Shown here: positions 30,241 to 55,024 of the stretch, piece by piece
Layout: the number at the start of each line of letters is the position of its first letter
Position numbering within the stretch: position 1 is the first letter of the stretch
Assembly (NCBI GenBank): GCA_024224295.1
Contig: JAAENN010000140.1
Span: forward strand, 21,587-85,586
Direction: 5' to 3'
DNA from: Shimia sp.
GTDB lineage: Bacteria > Pseudomonadota > Alphaproteobacteria > Rhodobacterales > Rhodobacteraceae
DNA length: 64,000 nucleotides
Position numbers and translations under genes: made by a program
Notes under the pieces: generated by a model
The model's input: the letters and a program-made list of their open reading frames with translations, nothing else
Databases searched by the model: none
What the model was told of the DNA's origin: nothing

Positions 30241-31188
30241 ATGCTGCGTCGTATTGCTGCTTTTATGTTGGGGGTGGTGCTATCCGCCCAAGGAGGAACC
30301 GCCGCGCCGGAGGCCGAAAAATCTTCATGGGAGATTGGGGGCCGAGAGTATCTAGGTTTTGGCAGTATGTTTGTGAATGATTTGCTGGGCGACGGCAAAG
30401 ACCGTTGGCGCACAGGGTCTTATGGAACGAGTCGGTTTTGGGGATACGGTTGGAATGGGCAGTTGCCCGCAGCTCCGGGCGATTTGATTGAGTTGCGTAT
30501 AGGTGGCGAAATTCTCTCACCTGCCAGTCTGACAAAGCATATGCCGATGGACCGTCCTTGGGCTGGAATGTTGAGCGCTGGCTTACACACACAGTTTCAA
30601 CGCCAATCCACTGAGTTTTCTATGGGGGGCGACATTCTCGCCTTGGGGCCCCAAACCGGGCTTGATCACCTTCAGGGAGCCATTCATGATTTGTTTGGTT
30701 TTCCCGGACCTTCCGACGAAGTGCGTGCCAACCAAATTCCCAATAAATGGATGGTTCGGTTTGTTGGCGAGGCTGGACGTGATTTTGAACTTGGTGGCCA
30801 GGCCAGCCTGCGTCCTTTTGTGGAGACCCGCTTGGGTGATGAAAACCTGGTACGCGCTGGTGTTGATTTCACTCTGGGGCAGTTTGGCCGAGGCGAGTTG
30901 ATGTCGCGCGATTGGGTCACGGGCAATCGGTATCGCTCGGGGCCAAATCAGGAAAAGGGCGTAAGCTTTGTTGTCGGCGCCGATGTGGCCAAAGTGTTTA
31001 GTAGCGTTTATTTGCCCAAGGATCGTGGTTACGACTTAACCGATTTACGGACTCGTGTGCGGGCAGGGGTGCATTGGCAAGGCAAGAAGCATCATCTGTT
31101 TTACGGTCTGACCTATCTTAGCGAAGAGTTTGAAATGCAGTATGAAGGGCAGGTTGTTGGCGCAATCCGTCTCGATTTTCACTTCTGA
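30241..31188 (+). CDS. Lipid A deacylase LpxR-family (DUF2219-like) outer-membrane protein
   Basis: FGSMFVNDLLGDGKDRWRTGSYGTSRFWGYGW; DRPWAGMLSAGLHTQFQR; C-terminal aromatic residue. Confidence 0.75.
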   Translation: MLRRIAAFMLGVVLSAQGGTAAPEAEKSSWEIGGREYLGFGSMFVNDLLGDGKDRWRTGSYGTSRFWGYGWNGQLPAAPGDLIELRIGGEILSPASLTKHMPMDRPWAGMLSAGLHTQFQRQSTEFSMGGDILALGPQTGLDHLQGAIHDLFGFPGPSDEVRANQIPNKWMVRFVGEAGRDFELGGQASLRPFVETRLGDENLVRAGVDFTLGQFGRGELMSRDWVTGNRYRSGPNQEKGVSFVVGADVAKVFSSVYLPKDRGYDLTDLRTRVRAGVHWQGKKHHLFYGLTYLSEEFEMQYEGQVVGAIRLDFHF

Positions 31189-41443: not shown

Positions 41444-42363
41444 GCGCACCGGTCTACAACCGCGTTGCCTTGATCGGGTTGGGCCTTATTGCCTCGTCAA
41501 TGTTCTGGGCGATAAAGCGCGGTGGGTTGGCCGGAGAAGTGACTGGCTTTGCCAGATCAGAGGCAACGCGCGAGACGGCGCGGCGGATTGGCTTGTGTGA
41601 TCGGGTCTATGACAGTGCTGCCGAAGCCGTCGCCGATGCGGATCTGGTTGTGCTCTGTGTGCCAGTCGGCGCGATGGGCGCAGTCGCCAAGGAGATTGCA
41701 CCACATCTAAAAACCGGAGCAACGGTGACTGATGTCGGTTCAGTGAAGCGCGATGTGATTGACGCGGTGGGGCCGTATTTGTCCGACGGCGTGCATTTTG
41801 TCCCGGCGCACCCTTTGGCTGGTACGGAGCATTCCGGGCCGGAAAGTGGCTTTGCGGAACTGTTTGACAATCGCTGGTGTTTGTTGGTGCCTGTTGAGGG
41901 CAGCGATGCGGGAGCGGTCGCGCAGCTGCGCGCGCTTTGGGAAGGCATGGGCGCCAACGTTGATGAGATGGATGCGGACCACCATGATCTGGTGTTGGCC
42001 GTGACCAGCCATACGCCGCACCTGATTGCCTACACTATGGTCGGTGTGGCCGATGATCTGCGTCGTGTGACAGACAGCGAAGTGATCAAGTATTCTGCTG
42101 CAGGTTTTAGGGACTTCACGCGGATTGCGGCGTCTGATCCCACCATGTGGCGCGATGTGTTTTTGACCAACAAAGACGCGACGCTGGAGATTTTGGGCCG
42201 CTTCACCGAAGAGCTGTTTGCCTTGCAAAGGGCGATCCGCACTGGGGATGGCGCGCATCTGCATGAGTATTTCACGCGCACACGCGAAATTCGTCGTGGG
42301 ATTATTGAGGCTGGTCAAGATACGGCAGCGCCAAACTTTGGCCGCGAGGCGCCAAAGGGGTGA
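41440..42363 (+). CDS. Prephenate/arogenate dehydrogenase family
   Basis: [52 protein letters not shown]. Confidence 0.94.
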
Positions 42364-43190
42364 AGCGGACGGCGGTATATCTGGCGCTGGTTGCAACTTT
42401 TGGCACGGGCGCTTTGAGTGCGTTGCAGGCCAATGCGCCTGAGCGCAGTTTGCGGCCTGTGTTGCGGGTTGTGTATCCGGTGGCTTTGCCGAGTTTTGCC
42501 CCGGATCGGTCCCTGCGGCCGGTGCTGCGGCCTGGTTCAAATGCCGCTACGGTGACACGGGTGGCGGCTGTTGCCCCGGCTGCGGCGGCGACCATCGAGA
42601 TGGCAGAACCGGAACCGGCGCGCGTGACACGGGCGGAGCGGAAAGCGCGCAAGGCGGCGGGTATTGGCAAGGTGTGTCGTAACAAGCGCCTTATTGGCAA
42701 AGAGGTGCCGCCGGTCCCGGGAAAACTGCGCGGCTGTGGCATCAAAAAGGGCGCGATCAAGCTCTACGAAGTGGATGGGGTGAAGCTGTCGACTCCTGCA
42801 GTGATGACCTGCGATACCGCCAAAGCGCTGGAGAAGTGGGTCGAAAAGGGGCTCAAGAGATCTGTCCGCAGTTTTGGTGGTGGCGCGAAGGAAATCAAGG
42901 TGGCGGCAGGTTATTCCTGTCGTACGCGCAACAACCGTCCTGGCGCGAAGATCAGTGAGCATGGCAAAGGCAAGGCGATCGATATCTCCGCCATCAAGCT
43001 CAAAAGTGGTGAAAGCATTTCAGTCCTGAAGGATTGGAACAACGGCAAGAAGGGCCGCATCCTGAAAAAAATGCACAAACAGGCCTGTGGGCCTTTTGGT
43101 ACGGTTTTGGGGCCAAATGCGGATCGCTATCACAAAGATCACTTCCACTTTGACATCGCGAAACATCGCGGCGGGCCGTACTGCCGCTGA
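42360..43190 (+). CDS. Extensin-like family protein (GTG start)
   Basis: VAAGYSCRTRNNRPGAKISEHGKGKAIDISAIKL; DRYHKDHFHFDIAKHRGGPYCR. Confidence 0.9.
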   Translation: MKRTAVYLALVATFGTGALSALQANAPERSLRPVLRVVYPVALPSFAPDRSLRPVLRPGSNAATVTRVAAVAPAAAATIEMAEPEPARVTRAERKARKAAGIGKVCRNKRLIGKEVPPVPGKLRGCGIKKGAIKLYEVDGVKLSTPAVMTCDTAKALEKWVEKGLKRSVRSFGGGAKEIKVAAGYSCRTRNNRPGAKISEHGKGKAIDISAIKLKSGESISVLKDWNNGKKGRILKKMHKQACGPFGTVLGPNADRYHKDHFHFDIAKHRGGPYCR

Positions 43191-44267: not shown

Positions 44268-44792
44268 ATGTGGGTATTTGGATACGGATCGCTTTTGTGG
44301 AATCCCGGATTTGAGGTGGCAGAACAGACGGTAGCGCGGTTGGACGGCTGGCACCGCAGCTTTTGTATGCGCTCAATCCACCATCGCGGAACCGTCGAGG
44401 CGCCGGGGTTGGTATTGGCCTTGGATGCCGAGGTTGGTGCGCATTGTCAGGGCCTCGCGCTAAAGGTTGCGGAAGGGCATGAGGCGCGGACGTTGGATTA
44501 CCTGCGCGAGCGCGAGCTGGTGAGTTCAGCCTATCTGGAAGAAACGTTGTCGCTGACATTGCGTGACGGGCGCAAGGTGGAGGCAGTGACCTATGTGATT
44601 GACCCTGATCACGTACAGTATTGTCACTTGTCGCTGGGTGAACAGGCGCGGATTATTTCCACCGCTGTGGGCGGGCGCGGACCAAACACGGAATACCTGC
44701 ACAACACGGCAAGCCATCTTTTCGAATTGGGCATTGAAGATGCGGACCTTAAGTGGCTGTCCCAAGAAGTGCACAGATTGACTGCTGCGTAA
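44268..44792 (+). CDS. Gamma-glutamylcyclotransferase, ChaC-like
   Basis: MWVFGYGSLLWNPGFEVAE. Confidence 0.93.
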   Translation: MWVFGYGSLLWNPGFEVAEQTVARLDGWHRSFCMRSIHHRGTVEAPGLVLALDAEVGAHCQGLALKVAEGHEARTLDYLRERELVSSAYLEETLSLTLRDGRKVEAVTYVIDPDHVQYCHLSLGEQARIISTAVGGRGPNTEYLHNTASHLFELGIEDADLKWLSQEVHRLTAA

Positions 44793-44885: not shown

Positions 44886-46118
44886 ATGGACCAGCCGGAC
44901 CGTACAGTCGAGCCGAGATTTTCCAAGCCTACCTTCCAGATTTTGCAGATGCTGGTCGTGTTGGGGCTTGTCAGCGCAGTGAGCTATGTGGCGTTGCCGC
45001 AAGTCCTGCCTGTGTTCACCGCCAACCCGGAGCTGAATGGCTTCATTTTCTTCGTGTTTTTGCTGGGGGTTGCCGCCACTTTTTGGCAGGTATTTTCGTT
45101 GTTCCGCTCGGTGCGGTGGATAGAAGGCTTTGCAGGGCTGCGCGAAGGGCATGACGTCAACAATCCGTCAACACTGTTGGCCCCTTTGGCCAGCTTGTTG
45201 CGGGAGCGTGGGTTAAACGGGCAGATTTCGTCTTCATCGGCGAGTTCGATTTTGGATTCGGTGGCCACGCGGGTGGACGAAGGTCGCGAGATCACGCGCT
45301 ACATTGTGAACCTGCTGATCTTTCTCGGTTTGTTGGGCACGTTTTACGGATTGGCGACCACTGTACCTGCGGTGGTGGACACGATTAAGAGCCTGGATTT
45401 GGGGTCCGGGGAATCCAGCATTGATGTTGTCAGTCGTCTGATGGATGGCCTCGAAAGCCAGTTGGGCGGCATGGGCGTGGCCTTTGCCTCCTCGCTTTTG
45501 GGCCTGGCTGGATCCTTGGTTGTGGGCTTGCTCGAGCTATTTGCAAGCCACGGGCAGAACCGGTTTTATCGCGAGTTGGAAGAGTGGTTAAGCTCGATCA
45601 CGCGGGTTGGTTTCTCCACCGGTGAGGGCGAAGGCGGCGACATCTCTGTGCTGGGCGCTGCGTTTGAACATATGTCCGGTCAGTTGGAGCAGCTACGTCA
45701 GACCATGGCGGCCAGTGGGGCTGGCCAAGGTGGCGGCGATACGGCGGCCTTGTCGGAAGCCATGCACCGTATGGCGGACCGGCTGGATGCGCAGGATACA
45801 GCGACGCAGGCTTTGTTGCGCATTGCCGAAGGTCAGGAAAGACTTATTACGCAGTTGTCAGATGGCGGCGGTTTGGATGGTGGAATGGATGCGGAGAGCC
45901 GGATGCGGCTGCGCTCCATTGATGTTCAGATGTTGCGCATTTTGGAAGAGATTTCCGCAGGCCGTCAGGAAAGTATGACCGAACTGCGTACAGAAATTAA
46001 CGGAATTGCACGGGTTTTGCGCCGAATAGGCAAGGCCGCGGACGGCGAAGGTTCTGGTCCGGCTACTAAAGTGCAATTGAAACGGCCACCAGCGCCCAAG
46101 GGCAGCAAGGAGGGCTAA
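44886..46118 (+). CDS. MotA/TolQ/ExbB-like proton-channel family membrane protein
   Basis: Hydrophobic N-terminal segments; ITRYIVNLLIFLGLLGTFYGLATTVPAVVDTI...LGGMGVAFASSLLGLAGSLVVGLLELFA. Confidence 0.85.
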   Translation: MDQPDRTVEPRFSKPTFQILQMLVVLGLVSAVSYVALPQVLPVFTANPELNGFIFFVFLLGVAATFWQVFSLFRSVRWIEGFAGLREGHDVNNPSTLLAPLASLLRERGLNGQISSSSASSILDSVATRVDEGREITRYIVNLLIFLGLLGTFYGLATTVPAVVDTIKSLDLGSGESSIDVVSRLMDGLESQLGGMGVAFASSLLGLAGSLVVGLLELFASHGQNRFYRELEEWLSSITRVGFSTGEGEGGDISVLGAAFEHMSGQLEQLRQTMAASGAGQGGGDTAALSEAMHRMADRLDAQDTATQALLRIAEGQERLITQLSDGGGLDGGMDAESRMRLRSIDVQMLRILEEISAGRQESMTELRTEINGIARVLRRIGKAADGEGSGPATKVQLKRPPAPKGSKEG

Positions 46119-46121
46119 GCC

Positions 46122-48338
46122 ATGGCCCTGTCCCGACGCACTGGACAACGATTTCAGGCCAGCATTTGGCCCGGGTTTGTGGATGCCATGACCGGGCTTT
46201 TGCTGGTTCTTATGTTTGTGCTGACGATCTTTATGATCGTGCAGTTTGTGCTGTCGGAGACGATTACAGAGAAAGACACGGAGCTGAACGCGCTGCAGTC
46301 CGAAGTTGCCGCCTTGGCAGATGCACTTGGGTTGGAGCGCACACGGAGCCAGGACCTTGAAGCCGAGATTGGCGGGCTTACTGCCACTTTGGGGGATCGG
46401 GATACGCAACTGCGGGAGCAGGACGCGCTGATTTCCGCATTGACTGCAACGCGGGATGCGCAGGCCGCGGCACTGGATGCGGCACGAACGCAGATCACCA
46501 GTTTTGAGGCGCAGGTCGCGACTTTGTTGGCCCAACGCAATGAGGCGCGGGCGGACATTGCAACCTTAGAAGGCGAGCGCGATACGCTGATTGATGAACG
46601 GGAAGCGTTGAATCTGGCGCTGGCACAGGCACGCAGTGAGGTTGACGCAGGCGCGGAGGCAGCGCGTCTGGCGGCTGCGGAGGCAGAGGCGATGCAGGCG
46701 TTGATTGACAGTCTGCGAACAGAGGTCGCCGATGGCCAGCAGCAGATTGATGAGCTTGCGGCTGAGGCGGATCAGTTGGACAAGGCGCTGACGGCGGAAG
46801 AGCAGCGACGAGTGTTGGAAGCCGCAGCAGCGGAAGAGCTGCGCAAGCGGCTCGAAAACGCGGATGCGGAGCTGACGGCGATGACCCTGGCGCTTGAGGC
46901 GCAGCGCAAAGAGGCGGAAGATACGTTGACTTTGTTGGCGGCTGCGGAGGCCGCACGGGAGGACTTAGATCTGAAACTTGCGGCGGCGCTTGTCGATGGG
47001 CAGAGCGTGGATGCGAGCTTGGCAGATACTGTGTTGAAATTGGCAACGGCAGAGACGGAGCTGGAGACACGAGACGGGGAGTTGGCCTCTGCTAAGGCAG
47101 AGTTGGCGGCGGCTCTGTTGGGGTTGGAAGAAAACCGGCGCACGGTGAGTGAGTTGCAGAGCCAGCTGGTCGCTGAAGTGGCCGCGCGGGCAACGGCAGA
47201 GGCGCAGGTGGGGGAACGGCGATCAGATTTGCAGGAGCTTGAGGCACAGTTGGCCGAGGCTTTGGTGGCGAAGCTGGCGGCCGAAACTGAAGGTGCAGAA
47301 GCGGCAGCAACGGCGGACGGGCTGGCGTTGCAGGTGGCGGATCTGGAAGAACAACTGGCTGCTGCGGTGACAGCGCAGGTTGACGCGCAAGAGGGTGGAT
47401 CTTCGTTACGCGAACGTTTGGCAACCGCGCTGGCGGCAAAGCTGGCGGCAGAGCAGAAGCTGCGTGACACGCTGAACGTGGAAGAAGAGCTGGCCAAAGC
47501 CCTGGCGGCGCAGAAGGCAGCGGAAAACGCACAGATAGCGGCTATGACTGATGCCGAAAGACGCGATGCATTGTTGGCAGAGGCAAATAAAGCACTATCT
47601 GAGGAAGAAGCGAAATCAGCGGAGAGCCTGCGCCAGATTGCGGCGCTCAATCAGCAGATTGGCGCGCTGCGCACGCAATTGGGCCAATTACAGTCTATTC
47701 TGGACGAATATGCAGAGAAAGATGCGGCAGCGCAGGTGCAGCTTGAAGCGCTTGGATCAGATCTGAACACCGCATTGGCACGAGCCGCTGCGGAAGAGCG
47801 TAAGCGCCGTCTTTTGGAAGAGGCCGAGCGCATCCGGCTAGAGCAGGAGAAGATCGCGCTTGAGAACCAGACAAAGGACTTGGAACAGTACAGATCCGAG
47901 TTCTTTGGGCAGCTGCGCAGCCTATTGGGCACGCAGGAAGGTGTGCGCATTGTCGGGGACCGGTTTGTGTTCTCCTCCGAAGTGTTATTCCCACCCGGCG
48001 GGGCGGACTTGTCCTTTGAAGGGCAGACTGAGGTCGCCAAAGTGGCGGGCATTCTGCAAAGCGTGATTGATGACATTCCAAGCAATATCGATTGGATTTT
48101 GCGGGTTGATGGCCACACCGATGACGTGCCGATCTATGGCGGCGCCTTTGCGGATAACTGGGAGTTGAGTCAGGCGCGAGCGTTGTCGGTGGTGCGCTAT
48201 ATGATTGACGTGCTGGGCTTGCCGCCACAGCGGTTGTCTGCAAACGGGTTTGGTCAGTACCAACCCGTTGATCCCGCGGATACGTCAGAAGCGCGGGCGC
48301 GCAACCGCCGGATCGAGTTGAAATTTACCGAGAAATAA
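46122..48338 (+). CDS. MotB/OmpA-like protein with very long coiled-coil between TM helix and peptidoglycan-binding domain
   Basis: WPGFVDAMTGLLLVLMFVLTIFMIVQFVL; ~545 aa Ala/Leu/Glu-rich helix; NWELSQARALSVVRYMIDVLGLPPQRLSANGFGQYQP...ARARNRRIELKF. Confidence 0.9.
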   Translation: MALSRRTGQRFQASIWPGFVDAMTGLLLVLMFVLTIFMIVQFVLSETITEKDTELNALQSEVAALADALGLERTRSQDLEAEIGGLTATLGDRDTQLREQDALISALTATRDAQAAALDAARTQITSFEAQVATLLAQRNEARADIATLEGERDTLIDEREALNLALAQARSEVDAGAEAARLAAAEAEAMQALIDSLRTEVADGQQQIDELAAEADQLDKALTAEEQRRVLEAAAAEELRKRLENADAELTAMTLALEAQRKEAEDTLTLLAAAEAAREDLDLKLAAALVDGQSVDASLADTVLKLATAETELETRDGELASAKAELAAALLGLEENRRTVSELQSQLVAEVAARATAEAQVGERRSDLQELEAQLAEALVAKLAAETEGAEAAATADGLALQVADLEEQLAAAVTAQVDAQEGGSSLRERLATALAAKLAAEQKLRDTLNVEEELAKALAAQKAAENAQIAAMTDAERRDALLAEANKALSEEEAKSAESLRQIAALNQQIGALRTQLGQLQSILDEYAEKDAAAQVQLEALGSDLNTALARAAAEERKRRLLEEAERIRLEQEKIALENQTKDLEQYRSEFFGQLRSLLGTQEGVRIVGDRFVFSSEVLFPPGGADLSFEGQTEVAKVAGILQSVIDDIPSNIDWILRVDGHTDDVPIYGGAFADNWELSQARALSVVRYMIDVLGLPPQRLSANGFGQYQPVDPADTSEARARNRRIELKFTEK

Positions 48339-48343
48339 GCGCT

Positions 48344-49306
48344 CTATTCGACCGTCACGGTGATGGTCTGGTGGTCGAGTTGTACGCCATCGCGGGTGAT
48401 GGTGACTTCGCCGTAGTAGGCGCCTTTGGGCCAGCCACCCATGGGGGTGCGTTTGCCGCCAGCGCGGAAATACTGCGCCTGAGTTTTCTTTAACACCACA
48501 GTCTGCTCAAACACGGTGCCCTGTGGGCCGGTGATGGTCAGGTCCATTTCGTCATCTGGAAGGCTGCCAAACGCATAGCCGAAGAGCACAAGTGCCTTCG
48601 CCTGCGACGGCATACGGTCGCGTCCTGCCATTCCGGATTTAACAGACGCGAACTTGGGCACGCCGACGTCAAAGCCCACGCGGATCAGGCCACCACCAAC
48701 ATAGGAGATGTCGCTTTCCCAAAGAGTGTCGTAGGTTCCGCCGCAGACGCCCGGGTGATCTGGTGCAAACGGGTCCACCACGCGATCGCCATCTCGGATG
48801 GAGATATGCAGGTGCGGGAATTGCGTGCGGCCGGAGAGCCCGATTTCGCCAAGCACCTGTCCACGAACAATTTGTTCCCCTTGAGAGACAGTCACTGAGC
48901 CCTTTTTCATGTGGCAGTACTGGCTGACCCAACCGTCGCCATGGTCGATGGACACGCCATTCCCGCAGTCTTTGCCATTGAGTTTAGGGATGTCTTCTGT
49001 GGTGATGATCTTGTCGATCATGCCGTCACGGGTGCCTTGCACCACGCCATCTGCTGCTGCCAGGACGTTTACACCGGCGTCCATTGCATCGGTGGACGGG
49101 AGAGCAAAGTCGGTGCCTTTGTGGCCATCATAGGAGAGAGGACCGCAGGTAAAATCGGTATGTTCGCCGCTGCTATCCTGGTCGACGTAGTTCTGAATGA
49201 AGCAGGTTTCGCCAAGCTCACAGTCGACGGGAAGCGAAAACGTTGGCGCGCCCGCAGCCGGGAAAGCTGCGAGCGCGCTGATAAGTACAAGGCTGCTTCT
49301 GAGCAT
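48344..49306 (-). CDS. M23-family peptidoglycan endopeptidase-like protein
   Basis: CGPLSYDGHKGTDFAL; CGNGVSIDHGDGWVSQYCHMKKGSV; FPHLHISIRDG. Confidence 0.92.
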   Translation of the reverse strand: MLRSSLVLISALAAFPAAGAPTFSLPVDCELGETCFIQNYVDQDSSGEHTDFTCGPLSYDGHKGTDFALPSTDAMDAGVNVLAAADGVVQGTRDGMIDKIITTEDIPKLNGKDCGNGVSIDHGDGWVSQYCHMKKGSVTVSQGEQIVRGQVLGEIGLSGRTQFPHLHISIRDGDRVVDPFAPDHPGVCGGTYDTLWESDISYVGGGLIRVGFDVGVPKFASVKSGMAGRDRMPSQAKALVLFGYAFGSLPDDEMDLTITGPQGTVFEQTVVLKKTQAQYFRAGGKRTPMGGWPKGAYYGEVTITRDGVQLDHQTITVTVE

Positions 49307-53440: not shown

Positions 53441-55024
53441 TCAGGCGGCGCGCAGGATTTCCAGGCGCGGGTCCTCTTCTGCGATGCCGACACCGGTTGC
53501 AAAGTCTTCTTCCATGATTTTCAGGATGGAGACGTCGCCCACAAAAATCTCGGAATAGGCCACTTCAAAGCCATTGCTATAGGTGTGGTTCACTACGTCC
53601 ACATCACCTTCGAGCCCTTCAGGGATGTTGATGGTCAGGTGGTTTCCGGTGAGCTGTTTGAGCACAGCGGGCCCTTGATCCATCGCGTCTTCGTGCAGGT
53701 TCAGCACAAGCGTGTCATTGCCTTCGCCGCCTTCCACATAGTGCCCCATGCCAAAGGTGATGGTGTCGTCGCCCTCGCCGCCAATCAGGGCGGTGTCGTT
53801 GTTCTGTGCAAGATCTGCGATCAGTACGTCGTCGCCTTCGCCGCCAAACAATTGTGTTACACCGTTGTTGGCCTCGGTCACCACGATACTGTCGTTGCCT
53901 TCGCCGCCGTAGATCAAGTGGCTTCCATCGGTGATTTCTACACTGTCGTCGCCGCCTTTCAGGACGGTTGCCGAGTTGTCGCTGAGCGTCAGGTCGTCAG
54001 CGTCATCGCTGCCTTCGGCTTGTGTCAAGCCAAAGACGCGGTGGGCATCGGCGTCGCCGGTGTCGGTTTCGTTGTACTGGCTGTCCGGGTCAAACATACT
54101 GGTAAGCTGCACATCGCTAGTGTCAAATTCTGACAGACCTTCCAAGCGCACGGTGCGGGTTTCGACATTGTCTTCGTTGAGCGGGTTGGTCCAGCTAAAG
54201 TGAACATCTACAAAGTCGCCTTCAGGATCCTCGGTCGTCGAGACTTCAGGCAATGGCAGTTCGTCGACATCGTCAAAGCTGGGCTTTGCGCCGATATCAA
54301 GCATGAGCACGTCTTCATCAGGATCAAAGTCCGTGATCGTAGCGATGATCTGGTTGTCCTCCTCATCGCCGTCTCGGATCGCTGTTGCGCCGTCTATGTC
54401 AAAGGCATAGACGTCCGCGCCTTCCCCGCCAGTCAGCACGTGGGCAACGGTCTCTTCCGGAAGGCCAGAGAGCGGCTTCATGATGAAAGTGTCGTTCCCA
54501 TCTCCTCCCTCGGCTGTGGCGGCGCCGTCATCCGCTTCATTGTTGTGCTTAAGGAAAAAGGTATCATCGCCGTCACCGCCGAAGCCGGAGGCTGCATCGG
54601 AGATGTGCATGTAGTCTTCCCCCTCGCCGCCAAAGCCTTCGGCCTCGCCGCCAAGCATAAAGACGTCGTTCCCTTCGCCTCCGAGGATCATGCCGTCGCC
54701 AAAGGATTTGAGCATGTCGTCTCCCGCGCCTGCGTCGATGTTCTCTTCGCCGCGCGCATAGAGCGTGTCGTCATCTTCTGTGCCGTAGAGTCCTGAAGCT
54801 GTATCTTGATCGTCCACTTGGGTCATAACCTCAACGGAGCCCGTGTCTGGAGACGGTTTAAAGTCATCCAAAAGATCGGTCGACACATCTTCGTCGTTCG
54901 TTTCCTCGCGGGTACCCTCTGGGTCATCGCCTTGCGAGCCATCCGCCGTTTCTTCAGGACCGACATCCACCAATGCTGTTGCTGCACCAATGCCAAGTAA
55001 CGACAGTAATAGTAATGGTCCCAT
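53441..55024 (-). CDS. RTX-like calcium-binding acidic protein with N-terminal hydrophobic anchor
   Basis: Repeated GG(E/D)G(N/D)D; MGPLLLLSLLGIGAATALVDVG. Confidence 0.85.
   Translation of the reverse strand: MGPLLLLSLLGIGAATALVDVGPEETADGSQGDDPEGTREETNDEDVSTDLLDDFKPSPDTGSVEVMTQVDDQDTASGLYGTEDDDTLYARGEENIDAGAGDDMLKSFGDGMILGGEGNDVFMLGGEAEGFGGEGEDYMHISDAASGFGGDGDDTFFLKHNNEADDGAATAEGGDGNDTFIMKPLSGLPEETVAHVLTGGEGADVYAFDIDGATAIRDGDEEDNQIIATITDFDPDEDVLMLDIGAKPSFDDVDELPLPEVSTTEDPEGDFVDVHFSWTNPLNEDNVETRTVRLEGLSEFDTSDVQLTSMFDPDSQYNETDTGDADAHRVFGLTQAEGSDDADDLTLSDNSATVLKGGDDSVEITDGSHLIYGGEGNDSIVVTEANNGVTQLFGGEGDDVLIADLAQNNDTALIGGEGDDTITFGMGHYVEGGEGNDTLVLNLHEDAMDQGPAVLKQLTGNHLTINIPEGLEGDVDVVNHTYSNGFEVAYSEIFVGDVSILKIMEEDFATGVGIAEEDPRLEILRAA

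Follow-up and report, generated by a model that had tools for sequence, protein, structure and literature searches.

A class-wide gene pair of Alphaproteobacteria that very probably encodes an ion-driven motor with a register-locked coiled-coil rod

Two adjacent genes, here called A and B, were analyzed in a 64,000-nucleotide stretch of Shimia sp. contig JAAENN010000140.1 (the whole stretch is called the window below). Their products very probably form a small rotary motor of the MotA/TolQ kind that is driven by ions. The pair is class-wide and no oddity of the window's genome. The family of B was already known from NCBIfam, without a function. New are a coiled-coil rod in B that is locked in register but free in length, a class-wide distribution independent of the flagellum, and, outside the Rhodobacterales, a unit of A and B with a third gene, Y. 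On balance, we lean toward a housekeeping motor of the cell wall that serves envelope growth or division.

A predicted motor-ring subunit next to a MotB-like subunit

Both open reading frames (ORFs) lie on the plus strand with 3 bp between them, and their lengths and positions (Table 1) are those of the initial annotation. B is located directly 3' of A at all 104 loci examined for conservation of the pair. A Pfam scan of A gave no match; MotA_ExbB scored 12.3 bits against a cut-off of 22.9, and A is therefore a divergent member. A phmmer search of A against PDB sequences returned nothing relevant, the A1 profile search found unrelated coiled coils only, and hhalign of A1 with MotA gave no significant match. 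Foldseek matched an AlphaFold2 (AF2) model of A (mean pLDDT 74.5, core >80) to PDB structures of TolQ, ExbB, ZorA, and MotA; the probabilities were about 1.0, and the TM-score (target) reached 0.61. The best fold matches were TolQ and ExbB.

The pore helix FLGLLGTFYGL of A was placed by hhalign on FVGLFGTVWGIM of the TolQ protein from the same genome. Thr152 was placed by hhalign; the match of Ser203 with the second TolQ/ExbB hydroxyl position was made by eye. Among 99 orthologs, T152 and S203 are invariant (99/99 each), S202 is present in 98 and T159 in 97. Judged by modeled structure and pore motifs, A appears to be a divergent MotA/TolQ/ExbB motor subunit that looks intact. It combines TolQ/ExbB pore chemistry with a MotA-like count of four predicted transmembrane (TM) helices. 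The C-terminal region is shorter in Acetobacteraceae-like and gammaproteobacterial members, where the profile match stops near position 326-336.

Residues 16-33 of B read WPGFVDAMTGLLLVLMFV, and the short N terminus carries arginines before WPGFVDAM. The TM Asp was found in 104 of 104 orthologs with a search motif that did not require Asp, and it was also read directly in B members of 0.7- and 0.9-Mb genomes. Conservation of this Asp and of the pore hydroxyls, on which the initial annotation had staked its proposal, was checked across the orthologs, and no loss was seen. The C terminus of the AF2 model of B is closest in the PDB to the periplasmic domains of MotS, PomB, and MotB (E about 1e-10), and the Pfam OmpA match (Table 1) agrees with the OmpA-type peptidoglycan-binding domain first read there. 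Folds, TM Asp, and pore hydroxyls together support the proposed unit of a MotA/TolQ-like and a MotB-like protein.

B reaches the curated equivalog level of NCBIfam NF006542 (PRK09039.1-1), "peptidoglycan -binding protein" (791.5 bits, cut-off 388). The sister models NF006543-NF006546, which are 342-350 aa long, also match B, so that short-linker forms of this protein exist. The NCBIfam record names neither function nor motor partner and is silent on linker length and register. Thus, the label "undescribed" in the initial annotation holds for function, none having been assigned, and fails for the genes themselves: B has a family record, and probable Komagataeibacter hansenii orthologs have been overexpressed (see below).

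A rod of variable length and constant phase

The linker of B was first described as roughly 545 Ala/Leu/Glu-rich, heptad-like residues, and its heptad pattern is indeed beyond chance. A Fourier peak at 3.50 residues had a power of 9.1, compared with 5.6 at the 99.9th percentile of shuffles. In a simple register model, the heptad-register score was 102, against a shuffle maximum of 60. The hydrophobic phase is almost constant along the linker, a single uninterrupted heptad register spans residues 46-449, and B has no proline from residue 18 to 623. The same holds in the orthologs: the best hydrophobic period was 3.49-3.53 in 99 of 99 linkers, and 98 of 99 were proline-free.

Measured between the TM and GHTD motifs, total length ranged from 249 to 1066 residues. 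Without flanks, the linker has about 146 to 963 residues, corresponding to 22-143 nm at 0.1485 nm per residue. Thus, rod length differs at least six-fold between species, while the helical register is kept. Central residues (about 331-390 of B) form a length-variable zone.

Total lengths were quantized at 3.5 residues (nominal Rayleigh z=22.7 on 73 distinct lengths); the next best period in the range 2-13 had a z of about 4.0. When the lengths were shifted at random by up to 3 residues, the highest value in 20,000 trials was 12.8. The phase angle was 106 degrees both in Rhodobacterales (61 lengths, z=14.5) and in other orders (15 lengths, z=11.5). Sinorhizobium meliloti and loci outside the Alphaproteobacteria obey the same phase. 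Length differences between close relatives were exact multiples of 7 in 9 of 17 independent pairs of unequal length (7, 7, 35, 42, 49, 63, 105, 133, and 140). In the coding DNA, 31 of 46 tandem arrays with a period of 15 or more were multiples of 21 bp, which suggests how rods lengthen; heptad composition alone may also raise this count. In addition, half-heptad classes were common, with 30 of the 73 distinct lengths in residue classes 4 and 5 of 7. Slippage alone does not explain these classes, and therefore maintenance of a continuous hydrophobic stripe is the better reading.

A hairpin or a free loop would let the phase drift. Since the lengths are phase-locked, the sequences argue for one uninterrupted rod and make a fold-back unlikely. 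This departs from the initial annotation, which had the linker folding back or broken as one way out of its length. Its other statement, that the linker cannot stand upright in the periplasm, holds for 545 residues (about 81 nm), and the rod would therefore have to lie along the envelope.

Distribution independent of flagella

Of the 385 alphaproteobacterial genomes searched, 250 contained A, nearly always as a single copy. In the same genomes, A and FliG occurred together in 152, A alone in 98, FliG alone in 76, and neither in 59, with no association (p=0.45). At least 22 genomes of 0.7-1.8 Mb carry A without FliG, and A is kept in genomes of 0.7-1.2 Mb. The independence from FliG and the retention in small genomes rule out a general flagellar role and argue for a housekeeping function.

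A is also present in a few other Pseudomonadota, including gammaproteobacterial members. At three such loci (L173, L174, and L175, in genomes G442, G516, and G639), the A-B pair has short linkers in the same 3.5-residue phase. Horizontal transfer or deeper ancestry are both possible origins of the pair outside the class.

Gene neighborhoods in other lineages

In Rhodobacterales, the gene order is hisC-tyrC-extensin-like-DUF2125-ChaC-A-B-(M23)-ClpA-gloB. At 20 loci in other families, an inositol-monophosphatase (IMPase) gene lies upstream, and ABC exporter, rpmE, and DUF1465 genes are often downstream. At 19 of 20 loci outside the Rhodobacterales, Y, a gene for a secreted OmpA-family protein, directly precedes A (order IMPase-Y-A-B; examples in Table 1). 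Y was absent from 80 of 80 Rhodobacterales loci, and the window's genome gave generic OmpA-domain matches only. The Y protein consists of a segment with QETVVIGG, a Pro/Ala-rich part, and an OmpA domain; Pfam OmpA was the only functional annotation found. Loss of Y was considered as a cause of rod lengthening and rejected as inconsistent, S. meliloti having a short B without an adjacent Y.

The order in S. meliloti (CP090106; L147 and L164) is thiE-sel1-IMPase-A-B-ABC-rpmE, and the same stretch contains a DUF1036 gene and a DUF882 gene encoding 605 aa. In this species, RgsC (605 aa) is SMc04010, RgsB is SMc04006, and RgsF, a TPR/Sel1 protein, is SMc03995 (PMC7327166). By gene counting, the DUF882, DUF1036, and sel1 genes are probably rgsC, rgsB, and rgsF, respectively, which would put A-B and these three on one stretch of about 17 kb end to end. 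RgsB, RgsC, and RgsF are essential for growth, are located at growth zones, and were pulled down with TolQ and TolR (PMC7327166). This link to polar growth is guilt by neighborhood, not proof.

In the nonflagellated alphaproteobacterium K. hansenii, adjacent genes named motA and motB (348 and 321 aa) are the only MotA/MotB homologs (PMC6570709). Their overexpression led to elongated, chained cells, and C-terminal GFP fusions were located at the poles; the authors read them as motility and cellulose factors (PMC6570709). Like A-B, they are a MotA/TolQ-like gene adjacent to an OmpA/MotB-like gene, and from their lengths and the reported BLAST hits they are probably orthologs of A and B. Papers on R. 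sphaeroides CenKR and DalA and on D. shibae vesicles contained no passage that could be tied to A-B.

Proposed mechanism and alternatives

By modeled fold and residues, A and B appear to belong to the broad superfamily of 5:2 motors that includes MotA, TolQ, and ExbB, presumably with five A around two B. Ions would pass where Asp21 of B meets Thr152 and Ser203 of A, and their passage would make the A ring and the B dimer rotate against each other. Ion entry at the A-B interface, relative turning, and the hold on peptidoglycan are proposed by homology. What is new is a phase-locked rod, tens of nanometers long, whose tip would hold the peptidoglycan. The B dimer would emerge from the membrane as an unbroken left-handed coiled coil, about 81 nm long in the window, and lie along the wall, its MotB-type tip domain gripping peptidoglycan at a distance. 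Torque or tension would then act between the inner membrane at one point and the cell wall at a distant one, in the service of envelope growth or division and apart from flagella, Tol-Pal, TonB, and Zorya. The sequences themselves show the gene anatomy, the conserved residues, the locked register, the flagellum-independent distribution, and the genomic context; we infer the 5:2 ratio of A to B, which ion drives the motor, in which direction force acts, and the role in growth or division.

The rod may act as a drive shaft and move the wall, or it may serve as a compliant anchor so that the cytoplasmic helices of A can do the work; the sequence fits both. Tentatively, and with doubt, we consider a rotary unit lying flat in the periplasm whose rigid coiled-coil shaft reaches peptidoglycan 20-140 nm away and puts twist, shear, or tension on it, phase and not length being functional. 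Shaft length would then evolve freely, and the helical phase between the motor and the wall gripper would stay fixed. From species to species, the rods offer a natural series of torsional elements that differ in length (22-143 nm) and share one phase. This makes torque transfer to the wall directly testable, along with the idea that anchoring coiled coils limit the torque of 5:2 motors (PMC9389320). A motor pair that is class-wide, kept in sub-megabase genomes, unrelated to flagella, and annotated in many genomes without a function may reveal how bacteria put mechanical force on the cell wall. If the growth or division role is true, the pair would supply an energy input that is so far missing for the alphaproteobacterial cell wall.

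Several points weigh against a housekeeping wall motor. About a third of the sampled alphaproteobacterial genomes are without A, which is therefore not universally essential. Foldseek E-values for A were weak (0.016 or higher) despite the probabilities near 1. The distinct lengths behind the z of 22.7 share ancestry and are not fully independent, so that the nominal p-value is too small; the agreement in phase between two lineages does not depend on their independence. A and B are not among the named proteins of the Rgs pull-downs (PMC7327166), and the identity of RgsF rests on gene order and counting. Membership of the K. hansenii genes rests on lengths and BLAST hits, and their phenotypes come from overexpression only. 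For confirmed family members, function is an inference.

Other readings concern the linker or the whole machine. In the AF2 monomer of B, the coil falls into three helices, with low-confidence breaks at residues 216-229 and 421-427, and geometry favors a compact linker. A linker folded into a compact helical bundle, with the effective length of an ordinary periplasmic distance, would be compatible with the motor readings. It is quite unlikely, since the heptad register runs through both breaks and the phase lock holds over 146-963 residues, where loops would let the register drift. Alternatively, the long, scaffold-like linker could belong to a passive or degenerate tether, a spacer or scaffold between wall and membrane that no longer conducts ions, motor function being a prediction. 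The invariant hydroxyls of A and Asp of B in 99-104 orthologs across classes would be unexpected in such a tether, which we regard as very unlikely. An energizer of the Tol or Ton kind is unlikely, too. Here, rotation would act on an outer-membrane partner, for example Y, by which outer-membrane material is moved or kept in place, and the wall domain would be a mere anchor. The pore motif of A resembles that of TolQ, its fold matches and the GLxGTxxG motif point to TolQ/TolR and ExbB/ExbD, and Y is directly upstream at 19 of 20 distant loci. However, A-B persists at the 80 Rhodobacterales loci without Y, A has an extra N-terminal helix, and the periplasmic domain of B is of the wall-binding OmpA/MotB type, not of the TolR/ExbD type. 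No TolA- or TonB-like third component was found next to A-B. The cluster lacks tolA, tolB, and pal (the neighbors are hisC, tyrC, extensin-like, DUF2125, ChaC, M23, and ClpA genes), B is a MotB-like protein with an OmpA domain instead of a short ExbD-type protein with a TonB partner, and TolQ and ExbB have separate genes in the window's genome.

The best library matches of A were ZorA models (3e-11), B matched ZorB models in PADLOC, and the PDB matches included 8qyk and 8vvn. ZorAB also joins a motor, a peptidoglycan-binding B subunit, and a very long coiled coil. We nevertheless give hardly any credence to a Zorya-like antiphage sensor-motor. In Zorya, the long tail belongs to ZorA and is located in the cytoplasm; here, the long coil is on B, on the periplasmic side, and A has only 410 aa. 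PADLOC found no ZorC, ZorD, or ZorE match in 10 neighboring proteins, and no other zor genes are nearby. Across the class, the locus occurs as a single copy in conserved synteny and not on islands, and it is kept in reduced genomes; B matches PRK09039 and no ZorB equivalog. Identity with Zorya was rejected on the missing partners and the coil on the other subunit. An auxiliary flagellar stator deserves still less credence. The wall domain of B is closest to MotS, PomB, and MotB, and A-B shares with MotA/MotB (PomAB, MotPS) the two-gene order, four predicted TM helices in A, and the TM Asp in B. Probable orthologs are often annotated as flagellar motor proteins (PMC6570709). In contrast, the FliG cross-tabulation, with 98 genomes that have A without FliG and 76 with the reverse, led us to reject stator identity, and A-B differs from MotA/MotB in its TolQ/ExbB-like pore motif and its coil of 146-963 residues. 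In addition, the window's genome encodes a separate MotA. The tests made place A-B outside flagellar stators, Tol-Pal, TonB, and Zorya. The gliding gene names GldLM and AglRQS were not seen near the pair, no dedicated search having been made.

Genomic setting in the window

The flanking genes that could be identified include none for flagella, Tol-Pal, or TonB, and the M23 peptidase gene is convergent, both as initially noted. TolQ, two ExbB-type proteins, and MotA are encoded on other contigs of the same genome. Some Rhodobacterales loci without the M23 gene still keep A-B-ClpA; the M23 gene is thus context and no obligatory partner, and the ChaC gene is probably context as well. Both were rejected as components, their synteny being confined to Rhodobacterales and M23 lost at several loci.

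Table 1. Positions of the genes and protein features discussed
Feature	Position	Strand	Residues	Description
Gene A	44886..46118	+	410 aa	MotA/TolQ/ExbB/ZorA-like putative motor-ring subunit; 4 predicted TM helices and cytoplasmic C-terminal helices
A TM3	45297..45380	+	138-165	Motif FLGLLGTFYGLATTV; Thr152 aligns with TolQ/ExbB ion-path Thr
A TM4	45462..45545	+	193-220	Motif LGGMGVAFASSLLGLAGSL; Ser203 at second TolQ/ExbB hydroxyl position
A C-terminal cytoplasmic helical region	45645..46043	+	254-386	AF2 helices, moderate to low confidence
Gene B	46122..48338	+	738 aa	MotB-like putative shaft/anchor subunit
B TM helix	46167..46250	+	16-43	WPGFVDAM; Asp21 is the predicted ion-binding residue
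B coiled-coil linker	46257..47891	+	46-590	545 residues, Ala/Leu/Glu-rich; ~81 nm if straight
B peptidoglycan-binding domain	47985..48308	+	622-729	OmpA/MotB type; Pfam OmpA 1e-20
ChaC-like gamma-glutamylcyclotransferase gene	44268..44792	+		Directly upstream; syntenic in Rhodobacterales
M23 peptidase gene	48344..49306	-		Convergent; syntenic in roughly half of Rhodobacterales loci
Y, locus L120	7846-9078			Example of Y
Y, locus L122	5310-6668	-		Example of Y
Y, locus L126	10054-11187	-		Example of Y
Y, locus L128	7416-8582			Example of Y
Y, locus L134	9358-10287	-		Example of Y
Y, locus L136	7390-8349			Example of Y

Long antisense ORFs of up to 292 aa overlie the coil of B (46772-47650 on the minus strand and other antisense stretches); they are probably a by-product of GC-rich, stop-poor heptad coding. 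Close upstream of A-B, positions 42360-43190 (+) encode an Extensin-like_C/M15-fold protein. The probable RgsC of S. meliloti is also described as M15-like, and M15-type wall enzymes are thus found near the pair in two lineages. A 527-aa protein (53441-55024, minus strand) has an N-terminal hydrophobic segment and many GGxGxD-like repeats, with a weak RTX/HemolysinCabind match below the cut-off. Finally, positions 30241-31188 (+) encode a homolog of the LpxR family of outer-membrane lipid A deacylases (Pfam 1.1e-15).

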